DNA from: Algisphaera agarilytica
Lineage (GTDB): Bacteria; Planctomycetota; Phycisphaerae; Phycisphaerales; Phycisphaeraceae
Assembly: GCF_014207595.1 (NCBI RefSeq)
Contig: NZ_JACHGY010000001.1
Coordinates: 2,920,836 to 2,984,835, forward strand
Reading direction: 5' to 3'
Length of the DNA stretch: 64,000 bases
The position numbers and the translations under genes were made by a program. Below, piece after piece: positions 2,134-51,541 of the stretch (the first letter of the stretch is position 1; each line of letters begins with the position of its first letter). The notes below the pieces were generated by a model. The model had not been told where the DNA came from. It made no database searches and saw only the letters and a list, made by a program, of their open reading frames with translations.

Positions 2134-2496
2134 TCAATCCGGCCCCTGAGTGTCATCGGCGTTTCGCAGACGCTTCTCCCACGTGCGGTGGGCCGCGGCC
2201 ACGCCCGAGAATAACTGGCGCTGGTAGTCCTCCAGCGACATCAGTTCGTGGGGCCGGACGACGACGACCAGGTCGTAGCCGCACGCGGGCTGCTCAGGAT
2301 CGGCTCCGGCACGCTTCGGCCACGTGTTCTGGGTCAGGCGGAAGGCCTCGCGCAGCATCCGCTTGTGTCGGGAGCGGGTCACGGCGTTGCCCACGCGTCG
2401 GCTGACGCTCAGCCCGAGTCGCCAGTGCGGCAGGTCGTTGGGCATGGTGAACAGCAAGAGCGGTCCCGCGTTCTTGCGGACCTTGGCGTCGAACAC
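2134..2496 (-). CDS. rnpA: Ribonuclease P protein component; N-terminus uncertain
   Basis: This is the protein subunit of RNase P, which with the catalytic RNA cleaves the 5' leader from tRNA precursors. The RNA-binding signature RVGNAVTRSRHKRMLREAF is intact, followed by YDLVVVVRP. The only conventional start in frame is the GTG at 2496. However, the same frame continues upstream into clearly homologous RnpA N-terminal sequence (FTHAHRLHGRRAFSAVF, codons up to about 2541) and then into a CCGAAAT heptamer repeat, reaching a TAA at 2593-2595 with no ATG, GTG, TTG or CTG between. The native start therefore seems to have been overwritten by the repeat, and an ATC codon (2551-2553 or 2572-2574) or the GTG must serve. 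rpmH, its usual neighbour, is absent; the gene lies between CLC and YihY. Confidence 0.93.
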   Translation of the reverse strand: MFDAKVRKNAGPLLLFTMPNDLPHWRLGLSVSRRVGNAVTRSRHKRMLREAFRLTQNTWPKRAGADPEQPACGYDLVVVVRPHELMSLEDYQRQLFSGVAAAHRTWEKRLRNADDTQGPD

Positions 2497-2543
2497 CGCG
2501 GAGAACGCGCGTCGGCCGTGGAGGCGGTGCGCGTGGGTGAAGC

Positions 2544-2647
2544 GATTTCGGATTTCGGATTTCGGATTTCGGATACGGAAACCTCGCGGTGTTTAGCAGA
2601 GCCCGCTACCGGGCGATTCCGAAATCATAAATCCGAAATCCGAAATC
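2544..2647. repeat. Palindromic repeat, family A (ATTTCGG heptamers)
   Basis: The left arm (2544-2573) is four tandem copies of GATTTCG and the start of a degenerate fifth. The right arm (2616-2647) carries the complementary CCGAAAT units. About 42 nt of unrelated sequence lie between, so the whole can fold into a long hairpin. It fills the gap between the CLC stop (2651) and rnpA and runs into the rnpA reading frame. A second copy lies inside priA (29729-29840). Confidence 0.9.
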
Positions 2648-2650
2648 GTC

Positions 2651-4501
2651 TCATCCTCGCTCGCTCAGCGTCGACTGATACTGCCGCATCAGGCGCGACC
2701 GGGTGATGACGCCTTTGATGACGTCGCTGCCGTCGACCACCGCGAGGCTGGCGACGTCGTGCTTGGCGAACTGCTCGAGGATGACGTCCAGCGTCTGGTG
2801 TGGAGCCACCGTCGGCAGGTTGGTCCGCATGAGTTCGGAGACGATCATCAGCGGGATCGCGTCGCGCTGGACGAGCGTCGCCCGCACGTCCTGCCCGACG
2901 ACCATGCCCAGGTAGCGGTCCGCCTCGTCGGTGACCACGTAGTCCACGACCGCGTAGTCCTCGGCCAGCTCGATCAGCCGGGCGGCGGGGTCATCCGGCT
3001 GCACCATCACGGCCGGGGTCAGCGGCACATCATGACACGTCATGCGACGCAAGAGCGTCAGGTCGGAGTAGGTGCCCATCTTGATCCCGCGGTCGCGGAG
3101 CCAGAGGGCGTAGATCGAGTCGCGGAAGATGAGCTGGGCGACGGTCGTTGCGAGGATCGCCACGAGCATGACCGGCAGGATGACCTGGTAGTCGGCCGTG
3201 ATCTCAAAGACCAAAAGAAACGCGGTCAGCGGGCAGTGGGCCACCGCGGCGATGACGCCCGCCATGCCGGCGAGGGCGAACGTGGCGGGCGTGCCGCCTT
3301 CGGGGAGGATGCCCAGGTGCTGGCAGATCATGGCGAAGCCGCCGCCCAAGGTCGCGCCCATGAGCAGGCTTGGCGCGATGACGCCGCCCGAGCCGCCGGA
3401 CCCGATGGTCAGGCAGGTGCCCACCAGCTTGAACGCGAGGGTGAGCGCGAGCAGGGCGAGCGTAGCGTTGCGGATCACGCCGGGCTCGTCGGGGTGGTCG
3501 GGGAGGTAGGACTCGGGGTTGAGCAGGGCGGTGATGACGGGGTAGCCGTTGCTGAAGAAGGTGGGGGGGCTGTGGTTCACGACCGGCTCGTTGCCGTAGC
3601 CCATCAGGTAGAAGCCCACGCCCAGTAGCCCGAGCAGCGCCCCGCCCAGCGCGGGCTTGATCCAGAACGGCAGCTTGATCGCGTTCCAGCACTTCTCGCT
3701 GAGGCGCAGCGAGCGGATAAACAGGGCGCCAAGAAGTCCGCACAGCACGCCGAGCACGATGTAGTGCCCGACCTCCCACACCGCGAAGCCGTAGCCGCCG
3801 GTGACGACCTCGGGGACGTAGAACACAGCCTGGTTTTCGCCGAGGACCGCGTGGGCGACGGCCGTGCCGAACACGCTGGCGACGACGATCGGGATGAAGG
3901 TCCGCAGCGAGAAGTCCCGGAGGATGATCTCCAGGACGAAGATGACCCCGGCGATGGGGGCGTTGAAGATCGCGGCCGTCGCCGCGGCGGCCCCGCAGCC
4001 GACCATGGTCTGCATGTGCTCCCGGCCGATGTGTAGCAGGCGTGCGATGGTCGAGCCCATGGACGAGCCGATGGTGATGATCGGCCCCTCGACCCCCGCC
4101 GAGCCGCCCGAGCCGATGGTGATGGAGGAAGTGACCATTTTCAGCCCGCCGCTGCGTGCGGGGATCTCGCCGTGCCGACGGGCCAGGGACTCGACGACGT
4201 CGGGGATGCCCGGCTCGCTCTTGTTCTTGCCCGCGTATCGGATGATCAGGCCCACCAACAGCCCGCCCAGGGCTGGGAGGATGACCAAGAGCGCCAGCCG
4301 TGAGCCGGGGAAGCGTTGTTGGCCCAGCACGCCGAAGAAGAAGTGGCCCGAGGACTCGACCAGCAGGTCGAAGCCGGTGGCGAGCAGCCCGGTGAGCGCA
4401 CCGATGACCGCGGCCAGGGGGATGAGGTACCAGTCCTTGGAGAAGCCGCTCTCGATCAGGCGGCGGTTCAGTCGGTCGGTGAGCTTGAGGCCTTTGGCCA
4501 T
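2651..4501 (-). CDS. CLC chloride channel/transporter with C-terminal CBS pair
   Basis: A protein of about 616 residues. The CLC core has the filter motifs GSGGSAGVEGP (about 130-140, with the gating glutamate E138 of GxExP present, which usually marks H+/Cl- exchangers), FNAPIAGVIFVLE, and the second filter stretch GSGGSGGVIAPSLLMG. A tandem CBS domain follows from about residue 475 to the end (PAVMVQPDDPAARLIELAE, then a second half ending in GVITRSRLMRQ); in this family such pairs bind nucleotides. The open frame reaches 4591, but its first 30 residues come from unrelated sequence and a palindromic repeat, so I start at the ATG at 4501 (MAKGLKL). The direction of chloride transport is not deducible. 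Confidence 0.93.
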   Translation of the reverse strand: MAKGLKLTDRLNRRLIESGFSKDWYLIPLAAVIGALTGLLATGFDLLVESSGHFFFGVLGQQRFPGSRLALLVILPALGGLLVGLIIRYAGKNKSEPGIPDVVESLARRHGEIPARSGGLKMVTSSITIGSGGSAGVEGPIITIGSSMGSTIARLLHIGREHMQTMVGCGAAAATAAIFNAPIAGVIFVLEIILRDFSLRTFIPIVVASVFGTAVAHAVLGENQAVFYVPEVVTGGYGFAVWEVGHYIVLGVLCGLLGALFIRSLRLSEKCWNAIKLPFWIKPALGGALLGLLGVGFYLMGYGNEPVVNHSPPTFFSNGYPVITALLNPESYLPDHPDEPGVIRNATLALLALTLAFKLVGTCLTIGSGGSGGVIAPSLLMGATLGGGFAMICQHLGILPEGGTPATFALAGMAGVIAAVAHCPLTAFLLVFEITADYQVILPVMLVAILATTVAQLIFRDSIYALWLRDRGIKMGTYSDLTLLRRMTCHDVPLTPAVMVQPDDPAARLIELAEDYAVVDYVVTDEADRYLGMVVGQDVRATLVQRDAIPLMIVSELMRTNLPTVAPHQTLDVILEQFAKHDVASLAVVDGSDVIKGVITRSRLMRQYQSTLSERG

Positions 4502-4563
4502 CTGAGCAGTGTAAAGATCAGGGTCACGATCCGCATCTTTGGCCCTTGGACAACTCGCTGTCG

Positions 4564-4630
4564 GTAGGTCAGGTCTTCGACCTGACACCAAGTGTTTTCA
4601 GTCTCGTGTCAGGTCGAAGACCTGACCTAC
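4564..4630. repeat. Palindromic repeat, family B (GGTCAGGTCTTCGACCTGAC)
   Basis: A perfect 25-nt inverted repeat (4564-4588 and 4606-4630) with a 17-nt spacer. Each arm is itself a hairpin, with GTCAGGTC pairing to GACCTGAC. It lies between the divergent CLC and split-barrel genes. A second copy with nearly identical arms but a different spacer is at 25188-25254. Confidence 0.95.
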
Positions 4631-25254: not shown

Positions 25255-28073
25255 GGGGAATCGTTCTTGGCTTGGTCGTGCATCTCACGAAGCAGGTCAA
25301 ACGCCTGCATCGGCGACAACTGGTTGAGGTCGAGCTTTCGTAGTTCGTCGACAACCGGGTGCTCGGGGGCTTGGGCGAAGAGCGGCATGTCCACGACGGG
25401 CGAGGGCTTCGCTTTCGGCTTCGACGGCGACGGGGCGGCTTTCGGGGCCATGCCTTCGTGGTTCACCGCCAACTCACCTAGCAGTTGGTGCGCGCGGTCG
25501 ACCACGCCGTCGGGCAGGCCCGCGATCTTGGCGACGTGGATGCCGTAGCTGCGGTCGGTCGCCCCGGCGACGATCCGGTGCAGGAACACGATCTCGTCGT
25601 TCCACTCGCGGACGCTGACGTTGAGGTTGGCGATCCGCGCCGCCCGCTCGCCGCCCACGGCCGGGTCGGCCAGCGTGGTCAGCTCGTGGTAGTGCGTCGC
25701 AAACAAACACCGGCAACCTACGTCCGCGAGGTGTTCGGCGATCGCCCAGGCGAGGCTCAGCCCGTCGAGCGTCGAGGTGCCCCGGCCGATCTCGTCGAGG
25801 ATCACGAGGCTGCGGTCCGTGGCGTGGTGGCAGATGTTGGCAGTCTCGGTCATCTCGACCATAAAGGTCGACCGCCCGGCGTGCAGCTCGTCGTGGGCCC
25901 CAACCCGCGTGAAGATCCGATCGCACAGCCCCACGGTCGCCGACTTAGCGGGCACGAAGCTTCCTGTGTGGGCCAAGAGTGCGATGAGTGCCGTCATGCG
26001 GATGTAGGTCGACTTGCCCGCCATGTTCGGCCCGGTGATCAGGGCCAGGGACGGGCCGCTTTGCGGCAGTGATGAGTGACGAGTGACGAGTGACGAGTCT
26101 TTGGATTCCTCACTCATCACTGTTAACTCGTCACTCATCACTCCCAACGACACGTCGTTGGGCACATACCGATCGCCCAGCAGTTCGTCGAGTACGGGGT
26201 GGCGTCCGCCGACGACGTTCAGGCCGGGCTCGTCGGTGAGCGTGGGCTTCACGTAGCGGTGACGGGCGGCGCGTCGGCCGAAGCAAAGCAGCACGTCCAG
26301 GTCGGCGGCGGTGTCGGCGAAGGCGTGCAGCGTGTCGATCTGCTTCTCACACACGCCGCACAGCTCGGCAAACAGGTGCTGCTCCCGCGCAATCGCCCGG
26401 CCCTCGGCACTCAGCACCTTGCCCTCGAACTCCTTGAGCTGCGGGGTGATGAATCGCTCGGCGTTCTTGAGCGTCTGTTTGCGGGTCCATAGGGCGAAAC
26501 GCTGGTCGTCGTCTTTTATCTTCTGGCTGTTGATGGCCGAAAGCTCGATGTAGTAGCCAAAGACTTTGTTGTATCCGACCTTGAGCGAGGAGACGCCGGT
26601 CTCTTCGATGAGGTCTTTCTGGTAGTTGGCCAGCCAGACGTTGGAGTCGCGTTGGAGGGTGCGGTACTCGTCGAGTTGTTTGTCGTGGCCGTCGCGGAAG
26701 AGGCCGCCGTCGCGGAGGTGGGCGGGGATGCCTTCATCTTTGCAGGCCGATTGGATGCGGTCGGCCAGGTCCACCAGCACGCTCAGTAGCTCAGCCAACC
26801 GCTGGTGATACGGCGCAACGGACGGCCGCTCGGCCAACACGTTCTCCAACGCCTCGGCTTGCCCGGCACTCTTACCCAGCGCCACCAGGTCCCGCGGCAA
26901 CGCACGCCCCACCGCGAGCCGGGCGATGATGCGTGGCACGTCGTGGACGCCGTCGAGCGCCCCGGCCAGCTCATCCGCAAAACGCGAGTCATCGACCAAC
27001 GCCTGCACCACGCGCTGCCGGTCTTCGATCGCGGCCCGGTCGGCCAGGGGGTAGCAAAGCCAATCGCGCAGCCGACGCTTGCCCATCGCGGTGACGCAGC
27101 CGCCCGAGCTCCCGCCGCGCCGCAGCACGGCCAGCAGCGAGCCGTCGGTGTCGGTCGCCCGCAGGGTCTGCTCGACCTCGAGGCTGGCGAGTGAGGCCTG
27201 GTCGACGATGAGGTGTTGGGTGCGGGCGAAGGTTTTGGGCGGGCGCAGGTGGGCCAGGACGCCGTCGTCGTTGCGCTGGGTTTCGAGGAGGTAGGCGAGC
27301 AGCCCGCCCGCGGCGGCGAGGGCGGGGTCGTCGTCCTGAAGACCGAAGCCGCCGAGCGTGGCGACACGGTACTGCTTACGCAGCGCGTCCACGGCCTCGC
27401 CCATACGGAACTGCCAGCCTGGGCGGCCGGTGCGGGGGCAGTCCAGCGGCAGCTCGGCGATGCGCGGTGGGGCGGCGCCATCGGCCGTCTCGCAGTACAG
27501 GAGTTCGCTGGGGTTGATGCGTGCCAGCTCGTCGCCGACCTCGGCCGCAGCGACGGTGACGAGCTGGAACGCCCCGGTGCTCAGCTCAGCCCAGGCGATC
27601 GACGCGGTGTCGTCTCCATGAAACACCACCGAGGCGCAGGGGTTGACCTGCTCGTCGTTCAGCAGCGATTCGTCGGTCAGCGTCCCGGGGGTGACGACGC
27701 GGGTGACGTCGCGCTTCACCACGCCCTTGGCCTGCGAGGCCTCTTCGACCTGATCGCAGATCGCCACGCGGTAGCCCGCCTGGACCATCCTTCGGAGGTA
27801 GCCCTCGACGCTGTGGTACGGCACGCCCGCCATGGGCACGCCCGCGGTCCGTTGGGTCAGCGTGACGCCGAGCACGCGGTGGGCCAGCTCCGCGTCGTCG
27901 AAGAACATCTCGTAGAAGTCGCCCATCCGGAAAAACAGCACGCAGCCGGGGTGCTGCTCTTTGAACTGCTTGAACTGCCGCATGGCCGGGGTGTCGGTCG
28001 GGTCGGACTTCTTGGCCATCGGCTTGTTCGGCTTGGGTGGATTCTGCGGTTTGGAGTCGGTCGAGGCGGGCAT
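25251..28073 (-). CDS. mutS: DNA mismatch repair protein MutS with an in-frame repeat insertion
   Basis: 940 residues. MutS recognises mismatches and starts repair as an ATP-dependent clamp. The mismatch-reading F-x-E is in GDFYEMFFDD near the N-terminus. The ATPase has Walker A GPNMAGKS (about 680-687), the N-2 region and Walker B VILDEIGRGTSTLDG, and the helix-turn-helix end ATHYHELTTL. C-terminal clamp-interaction tail DELRKLDLNQLSPMQAFDLL is present. Between YVPNDVSLG and the strand leading to Walker A lie about 25 extra residues (about 644-668, VMSDELTVMSEE... HSSL) encoded by a palindromic repeat (26069-26142). The TAG stop is supplied by another repeat. Confidence 0.97.
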   Translation of the reverse strand: MPASTDSKPQNPPKPNKPMAKKSDPTDTPAMRQFKQFKEQHPGCVLFFRMGDFYEMFFDDAELAHRVLGVTLTQRTAGVPMAGVPYHSVEGYLRRMVQAGYRVAICDQVEEASQAKGVVKRDVTRVVTPGTLTDESLLNDEQVNPCASVVFHGDDTASIAWAELSTGAFQLVTVAAAEVGDELARINPSELLYCETADGAAPPRIAELPLDCPRTGRPGWQFRMGEAVDALRKQYRVATLGGFGLQDDDPALAAAGGLLAYLLETQRNDDGVLAHLRPPKTFARTQHLIVDQASLASLEVEQTLRATDTDGSLLAVLRRGGSSGGCVTAMGKRRLRDWLCYPLADRAAIEDRQRVVQALVDDSRFADELAGALDGVHDVPRIIARLAVGRALPRDLVALGKSAGQAEALENVLAERPSVAPYHQRLAELLSVLVDLADRIQSACKDEGIPAHLRDGGLFRDGHDKQLDEYRTLQRDSNVWLANYQKDLIEETGVSSLKVGYNKVFGYYIELSAINSQKIKDDDQRFALWTRKQTLKNAERFITPQLKEFEGKVLSAEGRAIAREQHLFAELCGVCEKQIDTLHAFADTAADLDVLLCFGRRAARHRYVKPTLTDEPGLNVVGGRHPVLDELLGDRYVPNDVSLGVMSDELTVMSEESKDSSLVTRHSSLPQSGPSLALITGPNMAGKSTYIRMTALIALLAHTGSFVPAKSATVGLCDRIFTRVGAHDELHAGRSTFMVEMTETANICHHATDRSLVILDEIGRGTSTLDGLSLAWAIAEHLADVGCRCLFATHYHELTTLADPAVGGERAARIANLNVSVREWNDEIVFLHRIVAGATDRSYGIHVAKIAGLPDGVVDRAHQLLGELAVNHEGMAPKAAPSPSKPKAKPSPVVDMPLFAQAPEHPVVDELRKLDLNQLSPMQAFDLLREMHDQAKNDSP
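26069..26142. repeat. Palindromic repeat, family C, inside mutS
   Basis: Left arm 26069-26099 is GTGATGAGT followed by GACGAGT units; right arm 26111-26142 carries the complementary ACTCGTCACTCATCACT. It keeps the mutS frame open and codes for about 25 residues just before Walker A. Confidence 0.92.
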
Positions 28074-28807: not shown

Positions 28808-28849
28808 GCGCCACCGCTTCACCCCCTCGGCCTCTTCGCCAAGGTCCGT

Positions 28850-28862
28850 TACACTCCCGGGG
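28850..28862 (+). promoter_or_regulatory. -10 box of a predicted leaderless mRNA (priA)
   Basis: TACACT (28850-28855), six bases, then the GTG start of priA at 28862. This is the same spacing as the boxes at 4661 and 22589. Confidence 0.55.
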
Positions 28863-31429
28863 TGTCGCCCCGCCCATCCGAGAACAAGCTGTTCAACGAC
28901 GATCCGTCCGGCGCTCCGCCGTCCGAGGCGGTGGGTTATGCGTTGGTGTCGCTCGAACGCAGCATCGACAGCGCTGACGGCGGGTTTACCTATGCCGTGC
29001 CGCCGGAGTTGGCGGACTTGGCGGTGGGCGATCGGGTGACGGTGCCGCTGGGCCGGGGCAACAAGCCGACCGGCGGGATCGTCGTAGGCCTGGTCGAGAC
29101 GCCCGACACCAAGATCAAACGCATCAAGCCGATCCAAAGCCGGGAGCGGTCCGCCGCGTCCCTGCCGCCGGACCTGGTGGCCTTGGCCAAGTGGATCGCC
29201 GGGTACTACTGCTGCCCCCTGGGCATGACGTTCGCCAGCCTCCTCCCCGCCGCCGTCAAACGCGGCACGGGCGCCCAACAACGCACCCAAGTCCGTGCTC
29301 TCACCCCCAAATCCAAGCCGAGGGCTGAGCCAAGCGAAGGCCCGGATCCCGCTCCCCCCAAACTCACCATACTCCAACGTGCCGTCCTCGACGCCGCCCT
29401 AACCCATCAAGCAAGCGAAGGCTGGATCGACCCCAAGGACCTGGCCGACCTCGCCGGGGCCAAGTCGACCTCGCCCATCAAGCAGCTCCTGGACAAGGGC
29501 CTGCTCGAAACGCGTCAGCACGAACGCATCGTCTCGGACCTCGACCTGCGTGCCCAGCGAGCCGCTCCCAAAGCCGACCAGTCGCCGCCGCAGCTCACCC
29601 CCGCCCAGGCCACCGCCGTCGACCGCCTCGGGGCCGCGCTCCCCAGCGGCTTCAGCGTCCACGTCCTGCACGGCATCACCGGCTCGGGCAAGACCGAGGT
29701 TTACCTAAGGGCCATCGCGGCGTTGTTGACTTCGGACTTCGGATTTCGGAATTCGGAAGAAGACCCGGCTTCGGACCAAGCCAACGTAACGCCGTCGCCT
29801 GCGTCCCCTCCGAAATCCGAAATCCAAAATCCGAAATCCCCTCCCCCTGGCGTCATCGTCCTGGTGCCCGAGATCGCGCTGACCCCGCAAACGGTGGGCC
29901 GCTTCCTCGCCCGTTTCCCCGATGGCGAAGTGGCCGTGCTCCACTCGGGCCTCACCGCCGCGCAGCGCCACGCCCAGTGGCAACGCATCCGCGACGGCAA
30001 AGCCCGCGTCGTCGTCGGCGCACGCTCGGCCATCTTCGCCCCGCTCCCCCGCGTCGGCCTGATCATCGTCGACGAAGAGCACGAGTCGTCCTACAAGCAG
30101 GACCAGCTCCCCCGGTACCACGCCCGGGACGTAGCGATCAAGCGGGCCCAGCTCTCGGGATGTCCGGTGGTGCTGGGCAGCGCGACGCCGTCGTTGGAGA
30201 GTGCGTATAACGCGGGGATTGGGGGCTTGGAGGTTAGGGGCTTAGGAAAAGAAAAAACGGCGGGTGCGGAGACCAAGCCCCCAACATCCAAGCCCCCAAC
30301 ACCCAAATTCCACCTCATCGAACTCCCCGACCGCGTCCCGGGAGCCGTGCTGCCTAAGGTCGAGATCGTCGACCTCGCTCAGGAACGGCAGCAGCGTAAG
30401 GGCATCCACCTCTTGTCGCACCGCCTGGAGAACGCGCTGCGCAACAACCTCGACGCCGGGGGCCAGGCGATCCTGCTGCTCAACCGCCGGGGCTACGCCA
30501 ACTACATCGCCTGCCCCGACCACCGCTGCGGCTGGATGATGCGCTGCAACCACTGCGACGTCACGATGGTCTACCACCGCAACGCCGCGCTGCCCACCGG
30601 CGGCGTGGTGCGCTGCCACCACTGCGGGGCCGAGCAGCTCCTGCCGCAGATCTGCCCCGAGTCCGGGCACAAGCTCACCGTGTTCGGCCTGGGCACGCAG
30701 CGTGTCGAAGAAGAACTCGTCCGCAAGTTCCCCGAGGCCCGCCTCGCCCGCATGGACGCCGACGCCATGCGCACCGCCAAGGACTACCAGACCACGCTCG
30801 ACGCCTTCGCCCGTGGCGACACCGACATCCTGCTCGGCACCCAGATGATCGCCAAGGGCCTGGACGTCGCCAACGTCCGCCTCGTCGGCGTCGTCTCGGC
30901 CGACACCTCGCTGAACTTCCCCGACTTCCGCGCCAGCGAGCGCACCTTCCAACTCATCGCCCAGGTCGCCGGGCGTGCGGGCCGGGGCGAGCACCGCGGC
31001 AGCGTGATCGTCCAGTCCTTCAACCCCGACGACCCCGCCATCCAGCTCGCCGCCCAGCACGACTACGTCACCTTCGCCACGCAGGAACTCAAGACCCGGA
31101 CCGAGACCGGCCTGCCCCCCGTCGGCCGCATGGCCCGCATCGTCCTCCGCGACACCGCCGACCTGGCCAACAAAAAACGCGCCCACCAACTCGCCCAGGT
31201 CCTGCACCAAGCCAACGATCAGCTTAACCTCGGCGTCCGCCTCCGCGGCCCCAGCGTCTGCCCCATCGCCCGCCTCGCCGACCACCACCGCCAACACATC
31301 GAACTGATTGCTTCGCCCCCCCAAGGCGCGACGTCGATCCAAAAGCTCCTCACCGCACTACGCAATGCCGGCCAACTCATCAGCGACACCCACACCGCGA
31401 TCGATGTTGATCCGGTAGCGCTTCTGTAA
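28862..31429 (+). CDS. priA: Primosomal protein N' (PriA helicase) with two in-frame repeat insertions
   Basis: 855 residues, longer than usual (about 730-750). PriA restarts stalled replication forks by loading DnaB. N-terminal DNA-binding part to about residue 110; Walker A GITGSGKTEVYL (about 270-281), DEEHESSYKQ (DEAH box), zinc-binding Cys pairs CPDHRCGWMMRCNHC and CHHCGAEQLLPQICPESG, and the helicase C-terminal QMIAKGLD and AGRAGRG motifs. Extra length is explained by two repeat-encoded inserts: about residues 290-326 (between Walker A and VIVLVPEIALTPQ) and about 453-481 (before the FHLIELPDRV strand). Both are in frame. GTG start with leaderless -10. Confidence 0.96.
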   Translation: MSPRPSENKLFNDDPSGAPPSEAVGYALVSLERSIDSADGGFTYAVPPELADLAVGDRVTVPLGRGNKPTGGIVVGLVETPDTKIKRIKPIQSRERSAASLPPDLVALAKWIAGYYCCPLGMTFASLLPAAVKRGTGAQQRTQVRALTPKSKPRAEPSEGPDPAPPKLTILQRAVLDAALTHQASEGWIDPKDLADLAGAKSTSPIKQLLDKGLLETRQHERIVSDLDLRAQRAAPKADQSPPQLTPAQATAVDRLGAALPSGFSVHVLHGITGSGKTEVYLRAIAALLTSDFGFRNSEEDPASDQANVTPSPASPPKSEIQNPKSPPPGVIVLVPEIALTPQTVGRFLARFPDGEVAVLHSGLTAAQRHAQWQRIRDGKARVVVGARSAIFAPLPRVGLIIVDEEHESSYKQDQLPRYHARDVAIKRAQLSGCPVVLGSATPSLESAYNAGIGGLEVRGLGKEKTAGAETKPPTSKPPTPKFHLIELPDRVPGAVLPKVEIVDLAQERQQRKGIHLLSHRLENALRNNLDAGGQAILLLNRRGYANYIACPDHRCGWMMRCNHCDVTMVYHRNAALPTGGVVRCHHCGAEQLLPQICPESGHKLTVFGLGTQRVEEELVRKFPEARLARMDADAMRTAKDYQTTLDAFARGDTDILLGTQMIAKGLDVANVRLVGVVSADTSLNFPDFRASERTFQLIAQVAGRAGRGEHRGSVIVQSFNPDDPAIQLAAQHDYVTFATQELKTRTETGLPPVGRMARIVLRDTADLANKKRAHQLAQVLHQANDQLNLGVRLRGPSVCPIARLADHHRQHIELIASPPQGATSIQKLLTALRNAGQLISDTHTAIDVDPVALL
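29729..29840. repeat. Palindromic repeat, family A, inside priA
   Basis: Left arm 29729-29758 (CTTCGGA/TTTCGGA heptamers) and right arm 29810-29839 (CCGAAATC units), about 50 nt apart. It codes in frame for about 37 residues (SDFGFRNSEE... KSEIQNPKS). The same family covers the start of rnpA. Confidence 0.92.
30217..30304. repeat. Palindromic repeat, family D, inside priA
   Basis: Left arm 30218-30246 contains GGGGGCTTGGAGG and GGGGCTTAGG; right arm 30273-30304 contains two copies of CCAAGCCCCCAACA. It codes in frame for about 29 residues (GGLEVRGLGKEKTAGAETK... TPK). Confidence 0.88.

Positions 31430-49697: not shown

Positions 49698-51541
<1,844 letters not shown>

Follow-up and report, generated by a model that had tools for sequence, protein, structure and literature searches.

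Tandem repeats with a heptameric unit have been described in Xanthomonas and Nostoc (GGGAATC/GGGGACT; PMC4692102) and in Beggiatoaceae (TAACTGA; PMC4679880), and the Rickettsia palindromic elements (RPE) are dispersed palindromes of about 100 nt which lie in frame in unrelated conserved genes (PMC10969869). Non-canonical translation starts are also documented: infC begins with ATC in Streptomyces and with AUU in E. coli, and sigR of Streptomyces begins with GTC (PMC5472188). The CAU anticodon is a poor partner for AUC, and IF3 rejects weak third-base pairs (PMC10158994).

The elements that we found in Algisphaera agarilytica combine traits of the cyanobacterial heptamer repeats and of the Rickettsia palindromic elements. 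Like the cyanobacterial STRR, the Xanthomonas/Nostoc and the Beggiatoaceae repeats, they have a strict 7-base period, form many dispersed sets with several unit sequences, often lie near gene starts and are patchily distributed; as in STRR-type repeats, the period-7 arrays are in tandem, dispersed and present in many copies, with CCGAAAT heptamers at 24 separate places in the genome. However, the cited heptamer repeats are mainly intergenic direct repeats, whereas two-armed palindromes make up 14 of the 24 loci here, and conserved genes contain several copies in frame. The likeness to RPE, one of form and placement, resides in their being palindromic, dispersed and in frame within protein genes (priA, hemW, murA, tsaD); unlike RPE, their arms are heptamer arrays and their loops are variable. 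At rnpA, as for infC and sigR, a conserved protein gene has a non-canonical candidate start codon together with a Shine-Dalgarno (SD) sequence. The AUC of infC is ancient, conserved and autoregulatory, whereas that of rnpA, seen in one genome, would be recent and made by repeat insertion.

The features of the rnpA region in the window (the whole 64,000-nt stretch analysed) are the following:

2134..2574, minus strand: rnpA (RNase P protein), read from ATC 2574, with a conserved body from AAT 2547
2494..2496, minus strand: GTG, first canonical codon in frame and rival start, without SD and with loss of F18, R23, L24 and F30
2544..2574, minus strand: rnpA-proximal arm, 4.4 perfect CCGAAAT units, encoding the RnpA N-terminus IRNPKSEIRN
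2572..2574, minus strand: ATC, candidate and most likely rnpA start codon (GAGG 7 nt upstream, family-typical N-terminus length, infC precedent)
2575..2617, minus strand: loop between the arms, holding TAA 2593-2595 and the SD
2581..2585, minus strand: SD-like GAGGT, duplex with the 16S 3' end of -7.1 kcal/mol
2593..2628, minus strand: 11-codon open reading frame (ORF) read from the sequence, ATG 2628 to TAA 2593, in the rnpA frame, ending 18 nt before ATC 2574
2618..2647, plus strand: distal inverted arm CCGAAATCATAAATCCGAAATCCGAAATC, predicted to pair with the proximal arm when the RNA folds
2625..2654, minus strand: 9-codon ORF read from the sequence, its ATG overlapping the ClC stop (ATGA) and its TGA overlapping ATG 2628 (ATGA)
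2651..4501, minus strand: ORF of a ClC-type chloride channel with CBS domains, same-strand upstream neighbour of rnpA

In a profile search, the rnpA product matched PF00825 (E 5e-21, 75.1 bits for a cut-off of 22.3) and the NCBIfam model TIGR00188 (56.7 bits, over the cut-off of 38.35), position 1 of the PF00825 profile being the F of codon 2541 in the rnpA frame. The gene is single-copy in a genome that is 99.75% complete in 6 contigs, where the RNase P RNA gene rnpB was also found. On the minus strand its frame reads TAA(2595) ACA CCG CGA GGT TTC CGT ATC(2574) CGA AAT CCG AAA TCC GAA ATC(2553) CGA AAT CGC TTC ACC CAC ... GCG GTG(2496), and the codon listing contains no ATG, GTG, TTG or CTG between TAA 2593-2595 and GTG 2494-2496. 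The first-pass annotation had likewise read this frame as open from the GTG up to the TAA without any of these four codons, and had correctly placed its two ATC codons at 2551-2553 and 2572-2574. Conserved RnpA sequence picks up directly after the CCGAAAT array; a canonical start ahead of the conserved N-terminus, which is absent here, is not in itself a defining feature of the RnpA family. Another ORF that spans the element on the plus strand (2215-2703) was discarded as an antisense frame without family support.

Comparison with relatives indicates what the array has displaced. In two genomes of the same genus (G001, locus L033; G002, locus L037) the N-R-F motif is preceded by 17 non-conserved codons and these by an ATG, and in the window the array ends exactly ahead of this motif. 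As an ordinary ATG thus stands, in these relatives, 17 codons ahead of the point that corresponds to the array's present end, the 5' end of rnpA was replaced together with its ATG by the palindromic repeat. The first-pass proposal that the canonical start was lost to a heptamer repeat thus agrees with the relatives; it was incomplete in that it missed the second arm of the palindrome, the approximately 24 dispersed copies, some of them in frame in other genes, and the impossibility of an explanation by unit number. The ClC-rnpA gene order is conserved in G001, G002 and G020. Of the 50 rnpA genes compared in the order, 48 have a canonical ATG, GTG or TTG no more than 25 codons ahead of the anchor F. 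The other two are those of this genome and of G020, where a 7-base repeat, a degenerate one, also lies at the 5' end. In G008 (CCATCTG) and G012 (TTTTAAC), too, the rnpA start is bordered or formed by repeats resembling heptamers. A target-site duplication at the element was not established, the relatives being too divergent outside coding parts, and no Rfam RNA family matched the element. As a separate observation, rnpA of G020 (L043), which lies beside a degenerate CCCGAAA-like repeat, offers no canonical start over 39 codons, and its nearest start candidates are CTG or ATC, without SD.

We propose that rnpA translation probably starts at ATC 2572-2574, after the palindrome replaced its ATG. 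The locus presents what an AUC start calls for, namely a conserved N-terminus in frame, an SD at normal spacing and no usable canonical codon. The 16S 3' end, located in the window, has an intact anti-SD (CACCTCC), and the computed SD duplex energies were -7.1 kcal/mol for ATC 2574, -6.6 for infC, -0.1 for ATC 2553 and +0.7 for GTG 2496. Among internal ATC codons, 1.6% (5 nt) or 4.2% (4 nt) have an SD at the right distance, and among first ATGs 19% (4 nt); since two ATC codons are available, a chance SD match has a probability of about 3-8%. From ATC 2574 to the anchor F there are 11 codons, for a family mode of 9 and a range of mostly 4-25. Separately, the 16S rRNA gene (window 49698-51210) was followed by no 23S match in the next 12.8 kb of the window, indicating unlinked rRNA genes.

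The infC gene provides a precedent within the same genome (L132, G000), where no canonical start exists within 40 codons and an ATC is preceded by GGAG 9 nt upstream. A near-cognate codon occupies the conserved infC start position in all 30 infC loci examined from the order (29 ATC and 1 ATA), with an SD at 7-9 nt in 29 of them. Because infC has a near-cognate start across the order, AUC initiation is very likely part of the normal machinery here and dependent on IF3, and IF3 autoregulation in this order likely operates through AUC in place of AUU.

The predicted folding energy of the palindrome region is -67.7 kcal/mol, whereas shuffled sequences give -40.7 +/- 3.6 (z -7.5). In this predicted fold the SD and ATC 2574 belong to, or adjoin, a very stable hairpin whose stem buries the ATC. 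The hairpin, the weak pairing of AUC with the CAU anticodon and the chance level of the SD match all count against initiation at ATC 2574. As this hairpin would conceal the AUC start, ribosomes arriving from the upstream gene, which we take to belong to the ClC family from its sequence features and general knowledge, probably open it. The events could then be as follows. A dispersed palindrome made of two inverted CCGAAAT arrays and a short loop would have taken over the intergenic region and the first rnpA codons including the ATG, the proximal arm, stop-free in every frame, now supplying the putative RnpA N-terminus. Ribosomes would pass the ClC stop through the two tiny ORFs with ATGA overlaps, melting the distal arm, and those ending at TAA 2593 in the loop would reinitiate 18 nt downstream at the SD and ATC 2574. 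There, AUC 2574-2572, guided by GAGGT 2585-2581, would yield fMet-RNPKSEIRNRFTHAHRLHG..., as proposed for infC in the order. The chain of tiny ORFs from ClC to the loop may be a coincidence. We infer a coupling to ClC translation and a low but sufficient RnpA level; rnpA expression should be low because IF3 disfavours AUC with the CAU anticodon. The window also contains an inverted repeat of a different palindrome type, GTAGGTCAGGTCTTCGACCTGAC (4560-4630), in the stretch that separates the ClC gene from the next one.

Other starting points in the frame have to be weighed against ATC 2574. The first-pass annotation had left two options, an ATC start or a shortened protein, and had noted that a GTG start would cost conserved N-terminal residues. 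A shortened and still functional RnpA beginning at GTG 2494-2496 would use the first canonical start in frame, which moreover lies outside the hairpin, but this codon has no SD (+0.7 kcal/mol) and its use would delete the first 15 Pfam domain positions and four near-invariant residues (in the 50 rnpA sequences of the order, F18 is F in 42, R23 is kept in 48, L24 in 47 and F30 in 46). Furthermore, the stretch upstream of the GTG has kept both its conservation and its frame despite the insertion, which would be expected of a translated sequence, and solved RnpA structures align from this upstream region; we therefore hold the GTG start to be unlikely and, of the two options, find the ATC better supported, specifically ATC 2572-2574. 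The second ATC (2551-2553) would place the anchor F 4 codons in, inside the family range, but it lacks an SD (-0.1 kcal/mol) and is buried in the stem, which leaves initiation at this or another non-canonical codon of the array distinctly improbable.

It is just as doubtful that the assembly or a base is in error, or that the gene is broken in this strain, the true sequence having a canonical start. Tandem repeats and long palindromes are difficult to sequence, and the rnpA region is known from a single assembly (a search of the genome contigs for the same species gave two distant matches). The first-pass annotation had held that a different unit number might bring back an upstream ATG in frame; our simulation for both arrays contradicts this, as no unit number in either gives ATG, GTG or TTG, and the one codon that does arise is a CTG, when the right arm has 3 or 6 units in place of 4. 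Repeat-number error was consequently rejected as the cause of the missing start, and a separate point error would be required. The completeness of the genome (99.75% in 6 contigs, one rnpA) also counts against an error, and identical palindromes read in frame through conserved genes elsewhere, which speaks for correctly assembled arrays. Finally, ATG 2628 shares the frame of rnpA, and TAA 2593 is the sole stop on the way, so that the frame might be entered by read-through of this stop or by a frameshift from upstream. However, no SD precedes ATG 2628, no frameshift signal was seen upstream of rnpA, and UAA followed by A is a normally efficient terminator; this entry is very improbable. The start at ATC 2572-2574 is thus the reading that we retain.

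The element at rnpA belongs to a dispersed set. At 2 mismatches or fewer, CCGAAATCCGAAAT occurs 12 times in the window for 0.62 expected. In the whole genome the sequence was counted 43 times, for 0 matches to the reversed control. Among the 14 two-armed copies, 12 have the near-constant right arm TCCGAAATCCGAAATCnnnAATCCGAAATC with differing loops, which points to the arms having been copied rather than having arisen by separate, independent slippage. The period itself is specific: a sample of 464 kb yielded 15 imperfect arrays of period 7, for 3 at lag 8 and 0 at lags 5, 10, 11, 13, 16 and 17. Other heptamer units also occur in the genome (GAGTGAC, GGGGGTT and CCTAGCG). Whichever of its three frames is read, the CCGAAAT unit gives one heptapeptide (PKSEIRN; ISDFGFR on the reverse strand). 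It is also stop-free in all six frames, a property common to about half of all heptamers and missing in some other heptamers of these genomes; for these two reasons the unit should be easy to tolerate. Its distribution is patchy: the two same-genus genomes lack it, but in several further genera of the family and order it is frequent. A Y1 (RAYT) transposase was considered as the mover but is not favoured, Y1_Tnp being present in 49 of 61 genomes whether or not they carry the repeat, and no association being visible. In the papers searched, we found no description of such repeats in Planctomycetes. Independently, a heptamer palindrome of GAGTGAC / TCACTCA, with stops on one strand, was observed at window 26065-26143.

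Within the window, another copy lies inside a second conserved gene:

29728..29838, plus strand: second palindrome copy, in frame inside priA (ORF 28808-31426), differing or missing at the same site in relatives

ORFs run through the element, with a family match on both sides, in PriA (window), HemW (L003), MurA (L021) and TsaD (L088), and similar repeat peptides occur in an MnmE-like GTPase, a ketoacyl synthase and the MutL linker (weak copy). At the same priA site, G007, G040 and others have short loops, and G008 (L120) has a palindrome of another heptamer (GGGTATC / CGAAACC), which is, as far as sequence can tell, an independent insertion into the same loop. The arrays can apparently also donate a start codon: for der, an ABC ATPase and nuoH (L022, L026 and L086), the last AAAT of the adjoining array and a G form a candidate ATG at or near the 5' end. 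In addition, priA contains a second in-frame palindromic insertion (window 30214-30306), with units near CCAAGCCCCCAACA.

AUC starts, heptamer repeats and in-frame palindromes are each known; what is new is their combination, a heptamer palindrome taking the start of an essential gene. As two genera have different palindromes at one identical position of priA, we tentatively suggest, as a possibility that we hold with considerable reserve, that the heptamer palindromes of the order form a class which is generated afresh with differing units and written by a dedicated mechanism into genes and gene starts, the coding arms supplying N-termini and sometimes start codons, and that at rnpA this resulted in a recent, AUC-started and IF3-sensitive essential gene. 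If the AUC start is true, a mobile-looking repeat would have taken the start of an essential gene, which would have survived by a shift to AUC, and RnpA would be mis-annotated 17 or more residues short, as gene finders ignore AUC. This rnpA would then be a natural test of the minimum initiation that an essential gene needs and of IF3 control of RNase P, and the element family raises the question of what makes and spreads period-7 palindromes and why they are tolerated in frame in priA, murA and tsaD.
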